Positions 46,827 to 58,485 of a DNA stretch of 64,000 nucleotides are shown here, piece after piece. The position numbers and the translations under genes were made by a program. The first letter of the stretch is position 1. Every line of letters begins with the position of its first letter. The notes under the pieces are model-generated. The model searched no databases. It was not told the DNA's origin and saw nothing but the letters and a program-made list of their open reading frames with translations. The stretch is from Trueperaceae bacterium (GTDB lineage: Bacteria; Deinococcota; Deinococci; Deinococcales; Trueperaceae): positions 1,561,519 to 1,625,518 of the forward strand of contig CP070651.1 of the NCBI GenBank assembly GCA_020354625.1, written 5' to 3'.

Positions 46827-47569
46827 TGGGGCGCCTCGACGGTAAGGTGGCGATCGTTACGGGTGCGGCCCGCGGTATTGGCCGTGCCGTGGCACGCCGC
46901 TTTGCGGAGGAGGGGGCGATCGTCTTCGGGGCTGACGTGGTCGCCGACGAACTCGAGCACGAGATACAACGCCTCCAGGAGCGTGGGTACCGAGCGGAAG
47001 CCGTACCGACGAACGTGGCCTCGGCTGAAGAGGCCCAGGCGCTCGTGGATCGGGTGTTGGCTGAAACCTCGAAGGTAGACATCCTCGCCAACATCGCCGG
47101 TATCATCGTGGAAAAGTTCATTGAAGATACTGCGGTGGAGGAGTGGGACCGGCTCTTGGCCGTCAACTTGCGGGGGCCGTTTCTGTTGTGTAGGGCGGTG
47201 GCTCCCTCGATGAAGGCAGCCGGCAAGGGTGCCATCATCAACGTGTCGAGCCGTGCCGGCGTCCTCGGCTTTGCTACCGAGACCGCCTACTGTGCCTCCA
47301 AGTTCGGCATCGAAGGGTTGAGCCGGGCGCTTGCGGATGAACTCGGCCCGCACGGGATCGCCGTCAACTCGATCACCCCAGGTGTGCCGACACACACCTC
47401 GATGAGCGAGCAGACCTACGGCCCCGAGCAGCGCAAGATTTGGCGGGATCCGGAGGTGATCACTCCGGCGTTCGTCCAGCTGGCCTTGCAAGTCCCCAGC
47501 GGGATTCACAACCAGTATGTCAACGCCTTCGAGCTATCCGAGAGGCTTCGGGCCGAGGGGTGGCGATGA
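46826..47569 (+). CDS. Short-chain dehydrogenase/reductase 2
   Basis: A 247-residue SDR with TGAARGIG, the NIAG segment, the active Ser of NVSSRAG and TAYCASKFG. An Asp in FGADVV again suggests NAD(H). It shares the operon with SDR 1, and the two differ enough (about a third identical by eye) to act on different steps or to form a heteromer. The last 30 residues diverge from the common SDR end and are probably the substrate lid. Confidence 0.88.
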   Translation: MGRLDGKVAIVTGAARGIGRAVARRFAEEGAIVFGADVVADELEHEIQRLQERGYRAEAVPTNVASAEEAQALVDRVLAETSKVDILANIAGIIVEKFIEDTAVEEWDRLLAVNLRGPFLLCRAVAPSMKAAGKGAIINVSSRAGVLGFATETAYCASKFGIEGLSRALADELGPHGIAVNSITPGVPTHTSMSEQTYGPEQRKIWRDPEVITPAFVQLALQVPSGIHNQYVNAFELSERLRAEGWR

Positions 47570-47615
47570 TGGGTGGCCTGGCGACGGTAGGCCGGCTTTC
47601 AGCAAAGGGGACGAA

Positions 47616-48839
47616 ATGCAACTCTTTCTAGTCGACAAGCTCATCGACGGCACCGGCGGGGAGCCGCTCGAGCAAGCGGCCGTGGTGGTAGACGGCGGTC
47701 GCATCACCACAGTGGGCAGGCAAGCCGACATCGGTGTCCCTGAGGGTGCCGAGATCCGACGCGGTGCCACCCTGATTCCCGGTATGGTCGATGTTCACGT
47801 GCACCTCGCCTACAGCGGCATAGCCCACAAGCGTGCGTTTCGGGCCGAGGCTGTCGATATGGCCTATCCGCTGATGGCCTTGCGGGCAGCAGCCCACGCA
47901 CGAGACACGTTGAGGGCGGGGTTCACGTCTGTACGCGATCTCAACGCTCCGGGAGGGATCATCATCGATCTTCGCGATGCGGTGAACGCCGGTTACGTGC
48001 CAGGGCCGAGGATCAAGGCCTGCGGCTTGGGTTTGAGCGTGACCGGCGGTCATATGGATCAGCCCGGTTGGGGCGATCACGTCGTGCTCGATGCGATGAC
48101 TTGTGTTTGCAACGGCCCCGAGGGCTTTCGTAGGGGGGTGCGGGAGCAGGTCAAGCGGGGTGCAGATCTCATCAAGATCAACGTCTGCGTCAGTTCGGTT
48201 CGCGACCTCGCCGCACCGTACCAACAAGAGATGACCGACGAAGAGATCCAAGCCGCCTGCCAAGAAGCGCACATGCTGGGACGTACCGTCTCGGCGCATA
48301 CCTCCGGCGGGCCTGCCATCGCCACCGCGGTGCGGGCTGGGCTCGACACGGTCGAACACGGCCACTGGATCGACGAAGAGACAGCCGACCTGATGGCCGA
48401 ACGGGGAACCACGTACGTGCCTACTCTGCTGGTCAACGAGCGGAACTTCGACTTTTCGAAAGAGGAGATGGGCGCCACCGATGCCAGCTGGCGCTGGCTC
48501 GAGCTGTCGCGAGAGGCCAAGTGGGAGAGTTTGGATCGTGTGAGAAAGGCCGGTGTCAAGGTCGCAGTAGGGACCGATGCCGGGTTCATGTTGCCGCACG
48601 GTAAGATGAACGCGATCGAGATCGAGTTGCTGGTCCGTGGCGGTTACACCCCGCTCGAGGCTGTTATGGCCGCGACCAAGACCGGCGCCGAGGCGTTGGA
48701 TCTCGAGGGGGTCGGCACGATTGAAGCAGGCAAGCTGGCCGACCTGGTACTCGTTGACGGCGATCCACTTCTAGATATCAAGGTATTACAGGAGGCGTCA
48801 AAACTGCGCGTTTTCAAGGATGGAACGGAGGTGACTTGA
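47616..48839 (+). CDS. Imidazolonepropionase-like amidohydrolase
   Basis: A 407-residue metal-dependent amidohydrolase. ATG 47616 lies after AAAGGGG. The metal site is VDVHVHLA (about residues 56-63), followed by the bridging lysine KINVCVS (about 189), SAHTSG, VEHGHW and the catalytic Asp of VGTDAGF. This subgroup includes prolidases of the Sgx9260/Cc2672 type, which cleave N-acyl or N-terminal dipeptides, and hydantoin-type enzymes. It sits between two SDRs and the second receptor. Confidence 0.87.
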   Translation: MQLFLVDKLIDGTGGEPLEQAAVVVDGGRITTVGRQADIGVPEGAEIRRGATLIPGMVDVHVHLAYSGIAHKRAFRAEAVDMAYPLMALRAAAHARDTLRAGFTSVRDLNAPGGIIIDLRDAVNAGYVPGPRIKACGLGLSVTGGHMDQPGWGDHVVLDAMTCVCNGPEGFRRGVREQVKRGADLIKINVCVSSVRDLAAPYQQEMTDEEIQAACQEAHMLGRTVSAHTSGGPAIATAVRAGLDTVEHGHWIDEETADLMAERGTTYVPTLLVNERNFDFSKEEMGATDASWRWLELSREAKWESLDRVRKAGVKVAVGTDAGFMLPHGKMNAIEIELLVRGGYTPLEAVMAATKTGAEALDLEGVGTIEAGKLADLVLVDGDPLLDIKVLQEASKLRVFKDGTEVT

Positions 48840-48883
48840 AGTTCGGACCGCCACGGAAGTGTAAGCTACAGAAGGAGGAAATG

Positions 48884-50464
48884 ATGAATCTACGCTCGAT
48901 GGTATTGGTTCTAGTCGGTTTGATGTTTGTGACTGGGGCGTTCGCCCAAGACGGTCTCACCGTCATCTGGGGTGAAGACCGCGCCGATCACGCGACCCTC
49001 GACCCGCGGGTAACGCAGTCGCGGCACGAAGAACAGATGATTTTGCAGATCTTCGACCAGCTGATCGCCCAAGATGAAAACGGTAATATATTCCCCGGCC
49101 TGGCTGAGTCGTGGGAGGTGTCGGATGATGGCCTCTCCTGGACCTTCAATCTCCGTCGGGATGTGACCTTCCACGACGGTACACCCTTTACGGCCGAGGC
49201 GGTCAAGTTTACCTTCGATTCCATTCAGGACCCCGAACTCGGCTCCCAGGGAGCCATCGATATCTTGGGTCCCTACGACTCGACCGTGGTGCTCAATGAG
49301 TTCACCGCTCGCGTCAACTTCAGGCGCCCCTATGCCTCGGCGTTGACTGCCTTTACCGAGACCGAGTTGTCGATCGTGAGCCCCACTGCCGTTCGCGAGC
49401 TCGGTAACGACGGCTTCGCCCGCAACCCGGTCGGTACTGGCCCGTTCAAGTTCGTCGAATGGGAAGCGGGGCTCCGCGTGGTGCTCGACCGCAACGAAGA
49501 CTACAACTGGGCCCCAGAGTTTTACAATAACGAAGGCCCATCCCAGGTGGAACGGGTCATCTTGCGCTTCATCCCCGACGCGAGTACCCGCGTGGCAGCG
49601 CTCGAAGCGGGTGAGATCAATATCGCCGACCTCATCACCCCACTCGACCTGCTGAACTTCGAATCCAGCGACAGATTCGTGGGACAGGCCGCCAACGTTG
49701 CCGGCTTGCCCTTCAGTATCATGTTCAACACCACCCGTGGCCCCTTCCAAGACATCCGGGTGCGCCAGGCATTCATGCACGCCGTGAACCGCCCGGTGTT
49801 AGCCGAAAACCTCTTCTTCGGCTTCGCTGACGCCGCCTACGGCCCCTTGAGCGCTTCCACGCCGAGCTACTGGGCGGGTGTCGAGGAGCTTTACGGTTAC
49901 AACCCCGAGGGCGCGATGGCGCTGCTCGAGGAAGCCGGCTGGGTCGATACGGACGGCGATGGCATTCGTGAGAAAGATGGCGAGGAGCTGTCGCTCTTCT
50001 TCCCGGTTTTGCTCGAGCCGGATACCGCGGTGGCCGTGCAAGGTGAAGTTGCCAAGGTCGGCTTCGATCTCAAAGTAGAAAATGTGCTCAAGGCCCGCCA
50101 GGATGAACTCATCTTCGCAAACGACTACGACCTCCTGGTGATCCGTTGGGTCTCCAACGATCCAGGCGTGTTGATCATCCCCTTCCATACCCGTAACATC
50201 CCTGCGCCAGGCAAATTTGCGTTCAACTGGGCCCGCTGGAGTGATCCTACCCTCGACCAGCTGCTCGAAGACGCCGAAGCTGCTACCTCTCCTGACGAGC
50301 GTACCCAGCTCTACGAAGAGATTCAGACGATGATCATGGACGCCGCCATCTTCTTCGCGCTGCACAACCAAGTCCAGATGATCGGCCACACTTCGGAGAT
50401 GTCCGGATTCCGGTTCGCTCCGGGGAACTGGCAAGTACGCTTCTACGACGTATCGGCGAACTAA
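48884..50464 (+). CDS. Peptide/nickel-type ABC substrate-binding protein (family 5), second
   Basis: A 526-residue receptor. Two ATG codons in tandem follow AAGGAGG; ATG 48884 has the better 5-nt spacing. The signal peptide ends near residue 21 (GAFAQ). SWTFNLRRDVTFHDGTPFTAEAVKFTFD and DIRVRQAFMHAVNRPVLA are the family-5 landmarks. It differs from the first receptor over most of its length and is followed by a hairpin and a DppB/DppC-type permease pair, its evident partner. Confidence 0.92.
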   Translation: MNLRSMVLVLVGLMFVTGAFAQDGLTVIWGEDRADHATLDPRVTQSRHEEQMILQIFDQLIAQDENGNIFPGLAESWEVSDDGLSWTFNLRRDVTFHDGTPFTAEAVKFTFDSIQDPELGSQGAIDILGPYDSTVVLNEFTARVNFRRPYASALTAFTETELSIVSPTAVRELGNDGFARNPVGTGPFKFVEWEAGLRVVLDRNEDYNWAPEFYNNEGPSQVERVILRFIPDASTRVAALEAGEINIADLITPLDLLNFESSDRFVGQAANVAGLPFSIMFNTTRGPFQDIRVRQAFMHAVNRPVLAENLFFGFADAAYGPLSASTPSYWAGVEELYGYNPEGAMALLEEAGWVDTDGDGIREKDGEELSLFFPVLLEPDTAVAVQGEVAKVGFDLKVENVLKARQDELIFANDYDLLVIRWVSNDPGVLIIPFHTRNIPAPGKFAFNWARWSDPTLDQLLEDAEAATSPDERTQLYEEIQTMIMDAAIFFALHNQVQMIGHTSEMSGFRFAPGNWQVRFYDVSAN

Positions 50465-50474
50465 GCCTGTTTCT

Positions 50475-50504
50475 AGAGGGTCTCCCTATCTGGGGAGACC
50501 CTCT
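50475..50504 (+). terminator. Hairpin after the second receptor gene
   Basis: AGAGGGTCTCCC and GGGAGACCCTCT form a perfect 12-bp stem with a TATCTG loop; TTCCTC follows. Probably partial, raising receptor over permease levels. Confidence 0.75.
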
Positions 50505-50611
50505 TCCTCATAAAGCCAGGATGAATGGGGAGTGTCTATTAGGCTGTTCGTAGCCCTCTCGTTTCATCTCCTTGTCACTATCATTCAACCCTTAGGGTTC
50601 GAGGAACCGCG

Positions 50612-51541
50612 ATGCTTCGCTATTTAATTCGGCGCGTGATCGGTGTGATCCCGGTGTTGTTCATCTCCTGGAGCTTGATTTTTTTCGTGCTGCAGCTCAC
50701 GCCTGGGGATCCGGTGAACCTGATGCTCGCCGGGCGCCCAGCCTCTGAGGAGGTGCGCGAGAACACCAGAAGGTTGCTCGGCTTGGATAAGCCGGTTCAT
50801 GTTCGCTACATCAACTTCCTGTGGAAGGCGGTACGTGGAGATCTCGGCGATTCCTATCGGACACGCCAGCCGGTCATTACTGAGATCTCTGCCCAGCTCA
50901 GGCCGACACTCGAACTGGCGGCCGGCGGGCTGGTCATCGGCCTCTTGTTTGGGGTGTCCTTGGGTGTCTTGTCGGGGATCCGGCCCAACTCCTGGTGGGA
51001 CACCGGGGCGATGGTGTTTGCGCTGGCCGGTATCTCGATGCCGAGTTTCTGGAGCGCCATGCTCCTTATCTTCTTTTTTGGACTCAAATTGGGCTGGTTT
51101 CCGATCGTGGGTGAAGGACTTCCCGCGCTGGTGATGCCGGCCTTTACCACCGGTTTTTTCTTGGTCGGGAACCTCGCCCGCCTGATCCGCTCGAGCATCC
51201 TGGAAGTGATGACCGAAGACTATATTCGCACCGGTAGAGCCAAAGGCCTTGGCCACTGGAAGGTCGTGTTCAAGCACGCGCTCCGCAACGCTATGATCCC
51301 TCCCGTGACCCTGCTGGGGGTGCAGTTCGCGCTGCTGATCGGCGGGGCCGTGATTACCGAAACCGTCTTCGCCCGCCCGGGTCTCGGCCGGCTTCTGGTC
51401 ACCTCGGTGCTAAACAAGGACTTCCCCATGGTGCAGGCGCTCGTCGTCTATACCACCAGCGCCTATATCATGCTCAATCTGATCGTCGACGTGCTCTATA
51501 GCGTTATCGATCCGCGGATCCGTGATGCGAGGTCGGTATGA
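50612..51541 (+). CDS. ABC transporter permease, DppB type
   Basis: A 309-residue permease with six TM segments. The first helix starts at MLRYLIRRVIGVIPVL; the EAA-type loop includes YIRTGRAKGLGHWKVVFKHALRNA, the usual BPD_transp_1 signature of the peptide group. The stop overlaps the next gene by 4 nt. Confidence 0.93.
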   Translation: MLRYLIRRVIGVIPVLFISWSLIFFVLQLTPGDPVNLMLAGRPASEEVRENTRRLLGLDKPVHVRYINFLWKAVRGDLGDSYRTRQPVITEISAQLRPTLELAAGGLVIGLLFGVSLGVLSGIRPNSWWDTGAMVFALAGISMPSFWSAMLLIFFFGLKLGWFPIVGEGLPALVMPAFTTGFFLVGNLARLIRSSILEVMTEDYIRTGRAKGLGHWKVVFKHALRNAMIPPVTLLGVQFALLIGGAVITETVFARPGLGRLLVTSVLNKDFPMVQALVVYTTSAYIMLNLIVDVLYSVIDPRIRDARSV

Positions 51542-52425
51542 GCGTCGAGCTGGTCCAACAGACGGGGGTTTCATCCGCCAAGCCGAGGTGGCGTAAGGTC
51601 GTCCGTCAGCTGGTGATGAACCCCGGCGCTTTTATCGGCGCCCTCATCTTACTGGTTCTCGTCTTCGGTGCGCTTTTCGCACCTTGGATCGCTCCTTATG
51701 ACTGGAATGAACAGTGGGTCGGACCGCGCTTGGCCCCCCCCAGCACCGACCACTTTTTTGGAACCGACCGCTTCGGTCGCGACGTCTTTTCGCGCATGAT
51801 CTACGGGGGGCGCTTCTCGCTGTCGGTGGGCATTGCCACGGTCCTGTTCTCGATGATCATCGGCAGCCTCTTCGGGGTCTTTATCGGCTATACAGGTGGC
51901 CGGGTAGACCATTTCGGGGTTATGGCAATCGATGTGATGCTAGGCTTTCCCCCGATCGTGCTGGCCATCCTCATCGTGGCGGTATTAGGCGTGGGCTTAC
52001 CCAATGTGGTGGTGGCCGTCGGCATAGCCGGTATCCCGCGCTTCGCCCGGGTGGTAAGAGGGGCGACGCTCGCCATCAAGGCGCGCCCTTTCGTCGAGGC
52101 GACCCAAGCGATCGGAGCCGGTCACTTCAGGGTGATGGTCTGGCACCTCATCCCGAACGTGCTGCCGACCATCACGGTCTTGGCAACCCTAAACCTGGCG
52201 GGTGCTATCATCTCGACCGCCTCGTTGTCGTTTCTAGGGCTCGGTGCGCAACCGCCCACGCCGGAGTGGGGCGCCATGCTCTATCAGAGCCGGGAGTTCT
52301 ACCGCTTTGCACCGTGGAACATGATCTTCCCAGGCTTGGCCCTCTTTCTATCGGTCATGTCGGTCAACTTGATGGGTGACCGGCTCAGCGAAGTTCTCGA
52401 CCCACGCGTCTCGAAGGGACACTGA
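51538..52425 (+). CDS. ABC transporter permease, DppC type
   Basis: A 295-residue permease, with the FGTDRFGRDVFSRMIYGGR entry motif of the DppC group and the EAA loop FVEATQAIGAGHFRVMVWHLIPN. It pairs with the preceding permease; no DppD/DppF ATPases are near. Its stop is 3 nt before the M20 start. Confidence 0.93.
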   Translation: MSVELVQQTGVSSAKPRWRKVVRQLVMNPGAFIGALILLVLVFGALFAPWIAPYDWNEQWVGPRLAPPSTDHFFGTDRFGRDVFSRMIYGGRFSLSVGIATVLFSMIIGSLFGVFIGYTGGRVDHFGVMAIDVMLGFPPIVLAILIVAVLGVGLPNVVVAVGIAGIPRFARVVRGATLAIKARPFVEATQAIGAGHFRVMVWHLIPNVLPTITVLATLNLAGAIISTASLSFLGLGAQPPTPEWGAMLYQSREFYRFAPWNMIFPGLALFLSVMSVNLMGDRLSEVLDPRVSKGH

Positions 52426-52428
52426 GGC

Positions 52429-53790
52429 TTGCAAACGGTACTCGATTTCATCAGAACTCACCGAGACGAAGCGGTGCGCGACCTGCAGACCTTGCTCCGC
52501 CAGCCGAGTATTTCGGCTCAGAAGGTGGGGCTCGAGGATTGTGCCCGGCTCCTCAAAGATCAGATGGTACGTGACGGCATCGCCGACACGCAGATCCTGC
52601 CCACTGACGGGGGTCCGGAGGTGGTGGTCGGGCGGCTTCTCAACCCAGACGCAAAGCACACCTTGCTCTGTTACGGCCACTACGATGTACAGCCACCCGA
52701 ACCCATCGAAGCCTGGGATTCAGACCCCTTCGCAGCAGAGATTCGCAACGGGGTGATCTATGCACGGGGGGCTACCGACAACAAGAGTGGCTGCCTGGCC
52801 TTCGTCAAGGCGGCCAAGGCCTTCATGGCAGTCCGTGGGGCCCCTCCCGTCAACTTGGTGTTCTTGTTCGAAGGGGAGGAGGAGGTGGGCAGCCCCCACC
52901 TCGAGGATTTCGTGCTCAAGCATCACGACCTGCTCCGTTGCGATGCGTCGATCGGGTTGGATGGGGGGGTGCACCGGACCTCACTAAAGCCCGAGGTGCA
53001 GCTCGGCATCAAGGCGATCCTCTACGTAGAGTTGCGGGTACGGGGGCTCAAGACGGATATCTGGTCCGGGCGCGCCCAGACGGTGAAGAGCCCGGTGTGG
53101 CGGCTTATTCAAGCGCTCGCCGGCATCTTCGATCCCGATAGCGGTCAGGTACTGATCGACGGTTGGTACGACGACTGGCTCGAGCCCGAAGAAGACGATG
53201 TACGCTTTCTCCATGACGAGGCTCGTACGTTCGATATGGAGGCATACCGGCAGCAGTTGGGTGCCACCCATCTCAGTACGAGCGACCCGATCGAGCTTTT
53301 GAAGCGCGCCCACTACGGTGCCAGCGCCAACATCTGTGGCATCCAAGCGGGCTACACCGGATCTGGCGGCAAGACCATCGTACCTGCCGAGGCGATGGCC
53401 AAGCTCGATTTTCGTTGTCCACCCCGGCTCGAGCCGGAAAGGCAACTCGAGAAGTTGCGTAGTCACCTGTTGCAGCGTGGCTTTGACGACATCGAGCTAA
53501 CCGTTCACACCGCGAGGAAGAACCCTTACAAGGTGTCGAGCCGCGAAGCGATCAGCCGGGCGACCTTTCGCGCTGCCGAGCGGGTCTTCGGGACCCAGCC
53601 CGTGGTGTACGGCGTTTCGATCCAAGGGATCATCATGCTCCATATCCCTCACCCTGCGGTTCTTTCGGGGTTCGGAGCGCCCGAGAACAACCTGCATGCC
53701 CCCAATGAGAACATGCCTGTCGACCGGTATATCCAGGGGATCGAGTACGCTGCGACCATCATGGAAGAGTACGCTTCAGAGGTGGAGTAG
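52429..53790 (+). CDS. M20 family dipeptidase/carboxypeptidase
   Basis: A 453-residue zinc peptidase starting at TTG 52429 after a CTGAGG sequence. The metal site is GHYDVQP with the following D in GATDNKSG, the catalytic FEGEEEVGS, the lid, and IPHPAVLSGFGAPENNLHAPNEN at the C-terminus. The family removes dipeptides or N-acyl dipeptides. It is placed between the two permease pairs, consistent with intracellular hydrolysis of an imported substrate. Confidence 0.91.
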   Translation: MQTVLDFIRTHRDEAVRDLQTLLRQPSISAQKVGLEDCARLLKDQMVRDGIADTQILPTDGGPEVVVGRLLNPDAKHTLLCYGHYDVQPPEPIEAWDSDPFAAEIRNGVIYARGATDNKSGCLAFVKAAKAFMAVRGAPPVNLVFLFEGEEEVGSPHLEDFVLKHHDLLRCDASIGLDGGVHRTSLKPEVQLGIKAILYVELRVRGLKTDIWSGRAQTVKSPVWRLIQALAGIFDPDSGQVLIDGWYDDWLEPEEDDVRFLHDEARTFDMEAYRQQLGATHLSTSDPIELLKRAHYGASANICGIQAGYTGSGGKTIVPAEAMAKLDFRCPPRLEPERQLEKLRSHLLQRGFDDIELTVHTARKNPYKVSSREAISRATFRAAERVFGTQPVVYGVSIQGIIMLHIPHPAVLSGFGAPENNLHAPNENMPVDRYIQGIEYAATIMEEYASEVE

Positions 53791-56096: not shown

Positions 56097-56564
56097 ATGT
56101 CAGAAGAAGTGAGAGCGATCAAGCATATGGCGTTTGCTGTTCGAGATGCCAGGGCCGCACTCGAATCGTACCAGCGGTTCTTAGGTGTTCCCGAGGACAC
56201 CGAAATCCATGAGTATCAGGGTTCGCGTAACCGCGTAGCCCTTTTCGACCTCGGCGGCGTCGAGTACCAACTCTGTGAGTCGATGGATCCCGACGGACGT
56301 TTTGCTACCTGGATCAATGAGCATGGCGAGGGTCTTCACCACATCTGTTACGAGGTTGAAGATATCGATGCGGCGCTCGAGCACGCTGTGAAAAGTGGCG
56401 CTGCCCTTCGTGAGTGCAAGGCCTGCAAGATTACGGGTAGCCACCCACACCCCGAAGGATTCGTGGCCTTTCTCGACAACGATGCTGCAGGGATCGAGAT
56501 CGAGTTTATGCAGGTGTATACCCCCGAGGAGCTCAAAGAGTACGAGAGCGTCAAAGGCATCTGA
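56097..56564 (+). CDS. VOC family protein, methylmalonyl-CoA epimerase/glyoxalase-like
   Basis: A 155-residue vicinal-oxygen-chelate protein. The metal ligands are visible as His in KHMAFAV, Glu in VEYQLCE (or the following Glu), His in GLHHICYEV and Glu in IEIEFMQV. Sequence layout is that of methylmalonyl-CoA epimerase, but this cluster has no mutase or carboxylase gene, so it may act on another 2-oxo or CoA ester. An AAAGGAG site precedes the ATG. One-base overlap with the next gene. Confidence 0.88.
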   Translation: MSEEVRAIKHMAFAVRDARAALESYQRFLGVPEDTEIHEYQGSRNRVALFDLGGVEYQLCESMDPDGRFATWINEHGEGLHHICYEVEDIDAALEHAVKSGAALRECKACKITGSHPHPEGFVAFLDNDAAGIEIEFMQVYTPEELKEYESVKGI

Positions 56565-57310
56565 TGGCTCTGGCGGTCAGTCTTGCCGAGCGTGCCTTAA
56601 GGCTCGTCTCGACGGTTGAGGGTTCAGAGGAAGAGGGCGATTTTGGAGCCATCGATTCGAAGGTCCGCCTTGCTGTGATCGCTGCTCTGGAACGGGGTGA
56701 GACGCACTATACGGACCGTCCCGGTATCTTGCCGCTCCGTCAGCAGGTCGCTTCCTCGCTGGAGCGCACCTACGGGGTTCACTACGATCCCAAGACCTCG
56801 GTCACCATCACTTGTGGTGCCACCGAGGCGCGCTTCGTCGCCATTCAACAACTCCTTGCAGACGGCGACGTGCTCTTATGTTTGAGCGGCCGAGAGCGCG
56901 TCGCTGCAGCCGTAAGCCTACGCGGTGCGACGTGTAGAGAAGTCGATGCCTCTTCCTATGATGAGGTGCTCGTCGATGACAGGGTGAAGGTCCTCTATCT
57001 AACGCCGGAGGATGTCACCCCAGACGTATCCGATACCTGGCTGGAACGGGCTGGCCGGGAGGGCTGGTGGCTTATTGTGGAAACCGATGAAGTCGGTGGG
57101 GGGGTACATCCTGGAACCGAGCCGAGGCTTACCGATCGTACGGTAAGTGTGGGCGGAGTCGGTGAGGATCACGGCCTCAAGAGTTGGCGGGTCGGTTATC
57201 TGGCGAGTCCGAACATGAGGGCGGGCGAGCTGCGAAGCTTTAAACAAGCGCTCACCATCTGCACGACCAATCTGTCGCAATGGGCCGCGCTGGCACTGAT
57301 GGAGGAGTGA
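56564..57310 (+). CDS. Truncated, PLP-lysine-less class I/II aminotransferase paralogue
   Basis: A 248-residue protein clearly derived from fold-type I aminotransferases, as in THYTDRPGILPLRQQVASS and SWRVGYLASP. It stops just after the large domain, so the C-terminal small domain is absent. Aligned by eye with the following gene, SVGGVGEDHGLKSWRVGY matches TLSGFSKAYAMTGFRVGY, so the Schiff-base lysine (Lys233 there) is Glu201 here, and the NPTG motif is replaced by EDVTPDV. The ETDEVGG segment keeps the DE pair. Catalysis is therefore unlikely. The frame is clean and coupled to both neighbours, so it may be a regulatory or structural subunit of the next enzyme. Confidence 0.75.
   Translation: MALAVSLAERALRLVSTVEGSEEEGDFGAIDSKVRLAVIAALERGETHYTDRPGILPLRQQVASSLERTYGVHYDPKTSVTITCGATEARFVAIQQLLADGDVLLCLSGRERVAAAVSLRGATCREVDASSYDEVLVDDRVKVLYLTPEDVTPDVSDTWLERAGREGWWLIVETDEVGGGVHPGTEPRLTDRTVSVGGVGEDHGLKSWRVGYLASPNMRAGELRSFKQALTICTTNLSQWAALALMEE
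57301..57306 (+). promoter_or_regulatory. Ribosome site fixing the aminotransferase start
   Basis: GGAGGA ends 6 nt before GTG 57313. It overlaps the end of the previous gene and supports the GTG start, not the longer open frame from 57280. Confidence 0.6.
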
Positions 57311-57312
57311 CG

Positions 57313-58485
57313 GTGAGTTCCCTCGCTGAAATCAGAGAGATGAGTGGAACCGAGCTCCGTTACGCGCTGATGGACCTGGCCAAGGAGGTCCCGGACGCGA
57401 TTGCACTCGGTCGTGGCGATCCGGATCTCGATACCCCTGCAGAGATCGTCTCGGCTGTCAAGAAGGCCCTTCGGACGGGGCGGAACAGGCTCATGCCCGC
57501 TGCTGGGATGCCCGAGTTGCGGGAGGCGATTGCCGCGAAGGCCGTGCCGGATCACAACTTGCACGTTTCGAGTGATCAGGTAATGGTGACAGCCGGTGGG
57601 CAAGAGGGCCTCTTTCTGATCATCAGTGCTCTCATAGATCCGGGTGACGAGATCCTGGTTCCTGATCCGCGTTATACCTCTTACGATCAGGCCATCGAGT
57701 ACGCTGGTGGCGTCGCGGTGTCGGTTCCAACCTACCCTGAAGACGCCTTCGATGTCCGGCCGGAAGAGGTTGAAAAGCGTATAGGCCCCAAGACCAAAGC
57801 CCTGCTCTTGGTAACGCCTAGCAATCCGACCGGTGGTATCGTTACACGGAAAAATGCCGAGGCCTTGGCCGAACTGGCAGTAAAGCACAATTTCGTGGTG
57901 ATCTCCGATGAGATCTACGGGAAGTTTGTCTATCCACCCTTTGAACACGTCTCGATCGGGTCGATGCCGGGTATGTCGGATCGTACCATCACCTTGAGCG
58001 GTTTCTCCAAAGCGTACGCTATGACCGGCTTTCGGGTCGGCTACATCATCGCCCCCGAGGATGCGATCGAGGCGATGACGTCGATTAAGACCGTTACCAC
58101 CGGTCCGGTAGCCACGGTGAGTCAAGAGGCGGCTTTGGCAGCGGCGACGGGCTCGGAGGCTTGTATCGACGAGTTCCGTGAGATCTATCTCGGGCGCAGA
58201 TCTCTACTCGCGGAGGGGCTCAGCGCCATGGGGTTTCGCTATGGGGAGCCGCGTGGTGGGTTCTTCTTCTGGACGGACAGCTCGAGTACCGGGATGCGCG
58301 CGCTCGAACTGAGCTATCTGTTTCTTAAGGAAGCGAGGGTGCTTATCTTCCCTGGTACCGCTTTTGGGGATAGGTGGAGTGATTACCTCCGGATCACCAT
58401 GCTTCAACCCGACGAGGTGCTCAAAGAGGCTTTAGCCCGGATGTCACCAGTAGTAGCCCGTTACCGGGGCAGCAGCCGTGGCTGA
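57313..58485 (+). CDS. Class I/II pyridoxal-phosphate aminotransferase
   Basis: A 390-residue aspartate-aminotransferase-like enzyme. It has AGGQEGL (95-101), the SNPTGG motif (170-175), SDEIYGK (198-204) and SGFSKAYAMTGFRVGY with Lys233. The substrate might be an amino acid released from the imported compound. The preceding gene is its degenerate paralogue, and the following M20 gene overlaps it by 8 nt, so all three are translated together. Confidence 0.92.
   Translation: MSSLAEIREMSGTELRYALMDLAKEVPDAIALGRGDPDLDTPAEIVSAVKKALRTGRNRLMPAAGMPELREAIAAKAVPDHNLHVSSDQVMVTAGGQEGLFLIISALIDPGDEILVPDPRYTSYDQAIEYAGGVAVSVPTYPEDAFDVRPEEVEKRIGPKTKALLLVTPSNPTGGIVTRKNAEALAELAVKHNFVVISDEIYGKFVYPPFEHVSIGSMPGMSDRTITLSGFSKAYAMTGFRVGYIIAPEDAIEAMTSIKTVTTGPVATVSQEAALAAATGSEACIDEFREIYLGRRSLLAEGLSAMGFRYGEPRGGFFFWTDSSSTGMRALELSYLFLKEARVLIFPGTAFGDRWSDYLRITMLQPDEVLKEALARMSPVVARYRGSSRG

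Follow-up and report, generated by a model that had tools for sequence, protein, structure and literature searches.

A pseudo-aminotransferase lacking the PLP lysine and small domain, encoded with a catalytic aminotransferase and probably forming one enzyme with it

The window, a 64,000-nucleotide stretch of Trueperaceae DNA, contains a short gene whose product resembles an aminotransferase but lacks the lysine that binds PLP, and this gene directly precedes that of a complete aminotransferase. What might an aminotransferase without its catalytic lysine contribute beside an intact copy? The gene order over positions 56097-58485 is a VOC/glyoxalase-fold gene, the short gene and the complete class I aminotransferase gene, all on the forward strand (Table 1).

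The short gene and its neighbours

The reading frame of the short gene is intact and its product has the large-domain fold and the homology of class I/II aminotransferases. The Pfam Aminotran_1_2 family is matched over residues 37-128, and the AlphaFold model built on a 38-row alignment (pLDDT 86.4, pTM 0.84) contains the PLP fold with its seven strands. In a structural alignment (Z 24.7, rmsd 2.5, 237 residues aligned) residues 1-248 of the model match T. thermophilus AspAT (1gck) from residue 1 to residue 281, so the protein lacks the C-terminal small domain altogether. Consistent with this, the column of the C-terminal Arg is empty in all 38 short proteins, which are 233-248 aa long. The position of the PLP lysine, seven residues before Trp208, is occupied by Glu201; the window protein also lacks the Asn of the NPTG motif and the C-terminal Arg, and in one alignment of the short proteins the PLP Lys and the NPTG Asn are found in 0/38. 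Thus Pfam, the structural alignment and the residue alignment agree with the preliminary description of the protein as the large domain of a fold-type I aminotransferase without PLP lysine, NPTG motif and small domain. Similarity-based annotation would mislabel such a gene as an aminotransferase, which the protein cannot be on its own.

The start of the short gene lies within the stop of the upstream VOC gene, so that the two overlap by 1 nt (TGATG). On the downstream side, the most likely start of the catalytic gene is GTG 57307, which gives a 4-nt GTGA overlap with the short gene, as in 34/37 relatives. GTG 57313 is a possible alternative with a better-placed GGAGGAG and would leave a 2-nt gap, and the mechanical first ATG is at 57280. 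Of the overlaps of 1-2 nt with both neighbours proposed earlier, the upstream one is therefore as described, while the downstream one depends on the start chosen. The product of the downstream gene matches Pfam PF00155 at 235.9 bits and, as had been noted, is a complete paralogue with Lys, NPTG, DEIY and the C-terminal Arg.

Table 1. Features of the locus, in window positions unless a locus handle precedes them
Feature	Position	Strand	Basis or remark
VOC/glyoxalase-fold protein	56097..56564	+	coupled upstream via TGATG; homologue in 29/37 short-gene loci, some contigs ending close by
Pseudo-aminotransferase subunit, 248 aa, N-arm and large domain only	56564..57310	+	fold and residues; 37 orthologues
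Residues 44-59 RGETHYTDRPGILPLR, loop with Tyr49 (Tyr70 of AspAT)	56693..56740	+	13/16 positions invariant, 38 sequences
Glu201 codon at the PLP-lysine site	57164..57166	+	Lys absent in 38/38 short proteins
Residues 217-243, last large-domain helix/loop (KQALTICTTNLSQW)	57212..57292	+	12/27 positions invariant
Catalytic aminotransferase subunit, 392 aa from GTG 57307	57307..58485	+	GTG 57313 is an alternative start
Leu62 codon of the catalytic subunit, place of Tyr70 in homodimeric enzymes	57490..57492	+	HMMER alignment to P. horikoshii ArAT
PLP lysine codon of the catalytic subunit	58009..58011	+	Lys in 37/37
Hairpin-like repeats	L050:1930-2000, L050:2600-2740, L054:7960-8035, L055:8595-8730, L057:2615-2790, L072:7960-8035

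Distribution and selection

A scan with one genome per species retrieved 43 loci, of which 37 have a short gene of 233-246 aa followed by an intact aminotransferase partner. The 4-nt overlap between the two is found in 34 of these, and in the remaining three (L050, L055 and L057) the genes are 104-145 nt apart. Of the other six loci, four (L073, L074, L077, L079) are ordinary aminotransferases, one (L075) is a full-length relative and one (L071) is cut by a contig end. Short-gene loci come from Trueperaceae, Chloroflexi/Anaerolineae, Microvirga and one Acidobacteriaceae MAG, which, judging from the organism names, presumably represent at least four phyla. In every one of the 37 loci the lysine-less paralogue is encoded and conserved beside the catalytic copy, and because the lengths and residues that these proteins share are common to 37 orthologous loci, they are far beyond chance. 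The whole triplet of VOC, short and aminotransferase genes recurs at six loci in five further genomes of the family, where identity to the window is 43-51% for the short protein, 69-72% for the aminotransferase and 66-77% for the VOC protein. Among 111 genomes of the class, all six with a complete catalytic orthologue (E below 1e-200) of the window's branch, here termed clade A, also carry the short gene; a partial catalytic orthologue at a contig end (G020) was left aside. Some genome counts from other scans are lower bounds, with at most 4-11 candidates scored per genome. No relative was found on viral contigs, and the Microvirga short protein had no match among plasmids. A G+C-rich hairpin-like repeat is present in frame within the N-arm of three pseudo-subunit genes (L050, L054, L072) and also between both genes in three Chloroflexi loci (L050, L055, L057).

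The short gene is under purifying selection. For 39 close pairs out of 703, its dN/dS has a median of 0.21 (range 0.14-0.42), compared with a median of 0.09 (range 0.04-0.20) for the catalytic partner in the same pairs, so that the short gene changes at about double its partner's rate. These values describe the relatives, since in every comparison of the window gene itself with them dS is either saturated or no lower than 1.57. Together, the 37 orthologous pairs, their tight coupling and the selection on the short gene bear out the earlier view that this is not simple decay. The 37 orthologues and the dN/dS values also rule out a recent truncation or pseudogene: full-length relatives exist only as deep-branching intermediates.

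Complementary active-site residues

Tyr70 of AspAT reaches over from the neighbouring subunit into the active site. Tyr70 has been described as recognising the PLP phosphate and being located at the interface with the adjacent subunit (PMC6715241). Residues were counted in one alignment of 38 pseudo-subunit and 37 catalytic rows, in which the L040 partner, cut by a contig end, was left out. Lys, the NPTG Asn, Asp222, Tyr225, Arg266 and Arg386 (the C-terminal Arg) are each present in 37/37 catalytic partners. At the Tyr70 site, by contrast, Tyr is found in 38/38 short proteins versus 0/37 catalytic partners, which have Leu (14), Pro (9), Ala (8), Val (4), Thr (1) or Glu (1) instead; the loss in the partners is inherited, so 0/37 does not stand for 37 independent events. 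The catalytic subunit, with Leu62 in the window, thus has no equivalent of Tyr70 to donate to another protomer. Among ordinary aminotransferases Tyr occupies this site in 22/23. The set includes the pseudo-subunit of L075, which has Tyr (L092), and the exception, which is a catalytic partner from the related clade B described below (L008); leaving both out gives 21/21. Exclusion also of L073, L074, L077 and L079, fetched with a biased pattern that contains HYTD, gives 17/17, the remaining 17 having been retrieved because they resemble pseudo-subunits or catalytic relatives and then selected on a Lys motif.

Conservation within the short protein has a similar focus. Of its 37 invariant positions, 13 are in residues 44-59, the loop with Tyr49, and 12 in residues 217-243, which we take by homology to face the active site of the partner, whereas the former lysine loop (residues 185-205) has 0/21. 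The chance of at least 25/37 invariant positions falling within 43/248 is 3e-14, for segments that were chosen from the AspAT structure and named after the alignment had been inspected.

A Tyr lost in the partner and kept in the short protein suggests that the latter is needed for catalysis, as one half of a composite active site. We consider it probable (roughly 0.7) that both genes encode a single enzyme with the class I aminotransferase fold: an obligate alpha-beta heterodimer whose subunits share one composite active site. Pseudo-subunit and partner probably work only as a mixed pair. In this heterodimer the catalytic subunit would bind PLP through its Lys as a Schiff base, while the pseudo-subunit would take the place of the second protomer and lend residues across the dimer interface, above all Tyr49 as a ligand of the PLP phosphate and the KQ..T.C.T..SQW segment. 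A homodimer of the catalytic subunit should be poor because its own Tyr is lost. With the pseudo-subunit's own site destroyed and its small domain discarded, one active site per dimer would be left. Several observations count against the heterodimer: clade A pseudo-subunits keep residues of the old PLP pocket, namely the phosphate-loop Gly (38/38), Asp or Glu222 (38/38) and Arg266 (37/38), none of which would be needed by a protein that only donates trans residues; the short gene evolves faster than its partner; and Tyr is kept in two of seven clade B partners.

The retained pocket residues are also what would be expected if the short protein paired with the catalytic one mainly as a sensor, its old pocket binding PLP, phosphate or a metabolite non-covalently and tuning the partner. 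They would make such a ligand possible, and 6/18 positions of the TITCG-EAR segment are invariant. Nevertheless, Lys, the NPTG Asn, Tyr225 and the entire small domain are gone from the pseudo-subunits, the lysine loop is not only variable but shortened in many Chloroflexi, the four aligned pseudo-subunits from clade B no longer have Arg266, and the loss of Tyr in the partner is left unexplained, so that we regard a chiefly regulatory subunit as unlikely. Less likely still is a scaffold or assembly subunit with no active-site role, which would stabilise the catalytic subunit or dock the nearby VOC protein, dehydrogenase or hydrolase. Such a subunit would suit the coupling to the upstream VOC gene in Trueperaceae, the partly kept gene neighbourhood and the face that the model leaves exposed where the small domain is missing, but conservation is highest in the segments expected, from known structures, at the active site of the partner rather than on the surface exposed by loss of the domain. 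The preliminary description had suggested a regulatory or scaffold subunit. That the protein is a subunit of the neighbouring enzyme is most likely correct; a regulatory or scaffold role is too weak a description, given that the partner lost the trans Tyr and the short protein kept it, although the pseudo-subunit may also have a regulatory role in addition to completing the active site.

Ancestry, gene neighbourhood and known systems

Pairs with less reduced upstream copies exist. In L075 this copy is full-length with lysine, NPTG and small domain, and the partner has Met at the Tyr site. A C-terminal part is also kept in the upstream copy of L103, which has 395 aa and His in place of Lys, and in that of L104, with 364-373 aa and, in a hand alignment, Ala in place of Lys; at the Tyr site their partners have Ile and Val, respectively. 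Clade B pseudo-subunits, of about 355-374 aa, have a degenerate small domain and no lysine; this clade was found in 4/7 genomes examined, plus G002, G003 and the window's own genome. The last carries its clade B pair outside the window (G000:C1:2374413-2376703; L109:6414-8704), with proteins of 374 and 389 aa, an ATGA overlap and, further on, genes for an Ldh_2 dehydrogenase and a prolyl-oligopeptidase-family protein. The Tyr site of clade B partners has Pro (L096, L110, L111), Val (L097) or Ala (L098), and Tyr in L099 and L109. With Tyr kept in 2/7, its loss is unnecessary for pairing there; clade A shows full complementarity, clade B only a partial one.

In a tree of 75 rows and 238 large-domain columns, for which 17 of the clade A pairs were used, all catalytic partners (17 from clade A, seven from clade B and three from the intermediates) group on one branch (support 96), and the 20 ordinary aminotransferases included fall outside it. 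The pseudo-subunits of clade A (99) and clade B (98) each form one branch, and the two are joined at 85; those of the intermediates are long branches that are poorly placed. In both the pseudo-subunit and the catalytic subtree of clade A the window groups with Trueperaceae, Microvirga and the Acidobacteriaceae MAG, and the subtrees differ in the attachment of L047 and L076.

Related pairs can thus be arranged in a series from a full-length copy with Lys (L075), through full-length copies without Lys (L103, L104) and a degenerate small domain (clade B), to loss of the domain. This series resembles stepwise decay, and the short gene does evolve faster than its partner, but a duplicated aminotransferase in the course of being lost is very improbable, given that 38 sequences representing several phyla agree in length and invariant motifs, that dN/dS is 0.14-0.42 and that no broken copy was met among the 37. 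Returning to the heterodimer, we lean, judging from sequences, towards a new group of obligate heterodimeric aminotransferases which would have arisen by one duplication and the stepwise reduction of one protomer (Lys lost, small domain eroded, then deleted) to a half-enzyme that only completes the site of its partner, perhaps with a new ligand site in the old PLP pocket; two separate branches of this group would be present in the window genome.

Genes found around the pairs encode a peptide-type ABC transporter, M20 and M24 hydrolases, an AstE-like hydrolase and a dihydropyrimidinase-like hydrolase, and an Ldh_2 dehydrogenase adjoins both clade A (L047, L060) and clade B (L109) pairs. Just upstream in the window, positions 47517-53790 hold genes in the same direction for an amidohydrolase, a family 5 solute-binding protein, a permease and an M20 peptidase, a long catabolic-looking island. 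In one Anaerolineae pair locus a DUF4438 protein, a possible pathway member, is encoded directly upstream of the VOC gene (L047:5558-6436). The neighbouring transporter, hydrolases, dehydrogenase and VOC genes suggest catabolism of an amino-acid derivative and nothing more specific; this compound might be taken up by the peptide-type ABC transporter and then catabolised via the pair.

If the heterodimer is real, then in this enzyme, whose dead half is shorn of a whole domain, the cis and trans active-site residues would be naturally separated, and each step of the reduction would be represented by living intermediates. The contribution of the second active site and of the mobile small domain in these dimers would become testable, as would the route from homodimers to asymmetric enzymes.

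Among known enzymes, class I aminotransferases of subgroup I-gamma are alike in fold, large domain and the tyrosine loop at the dimer interface, and two of them, T. thermophilus AspAT and P. horikoshii ArAT, are among the best matches for both proteins. Fold-type I aminotransferases are typically homodimers or homotetramers according to a review (PMC9309667), whereas in the window pair one protomer is catalytically dead and without a domain. The best NCBIfam model for both window proteins is that of the guanitoxin cyclodehydratase GntC (NF041364), and neither passes its cut-off of 415 (catalytic subunit 317.5 bits, short protein 79.1). In glycine decarboxylase GcvPA/GcvPB, a bacterial fold-type I heterodimer, PLP is bound in one subunit only; PLP family and reaction are different, and domains are kept in both subunits. 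The nearest parallel, with the same logic, is serine palmitoyltransferase LCB1/LCB2, a eukaryotic membrane enzyme of the alpha-oxoamine synthase family, which differs in having no domain deletion: LCB1 is full length. There, according to PMC3794620, a catalytic subunit is paired with a paralogue that lacks the lysine, a single active site has been proposed, and the pseudo-subunit holds residues predicted to act in catalysis. SPT, KBL and ALAS appeared neither in the 41 sequence matches of the short protein nor in the fold matches listed, both being ranked lists. The open literature, with most subscription journals outside the search, yielded no heterodimeric aminotransferase or pseudo-aminotransferase pair. 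Hence the logic of pairing a pseudo-subunit with a catalytic one is known in fold-type I enzymes, while its use by an aminotransferase and the removal of a whole domain are, as far as our searches show, new.
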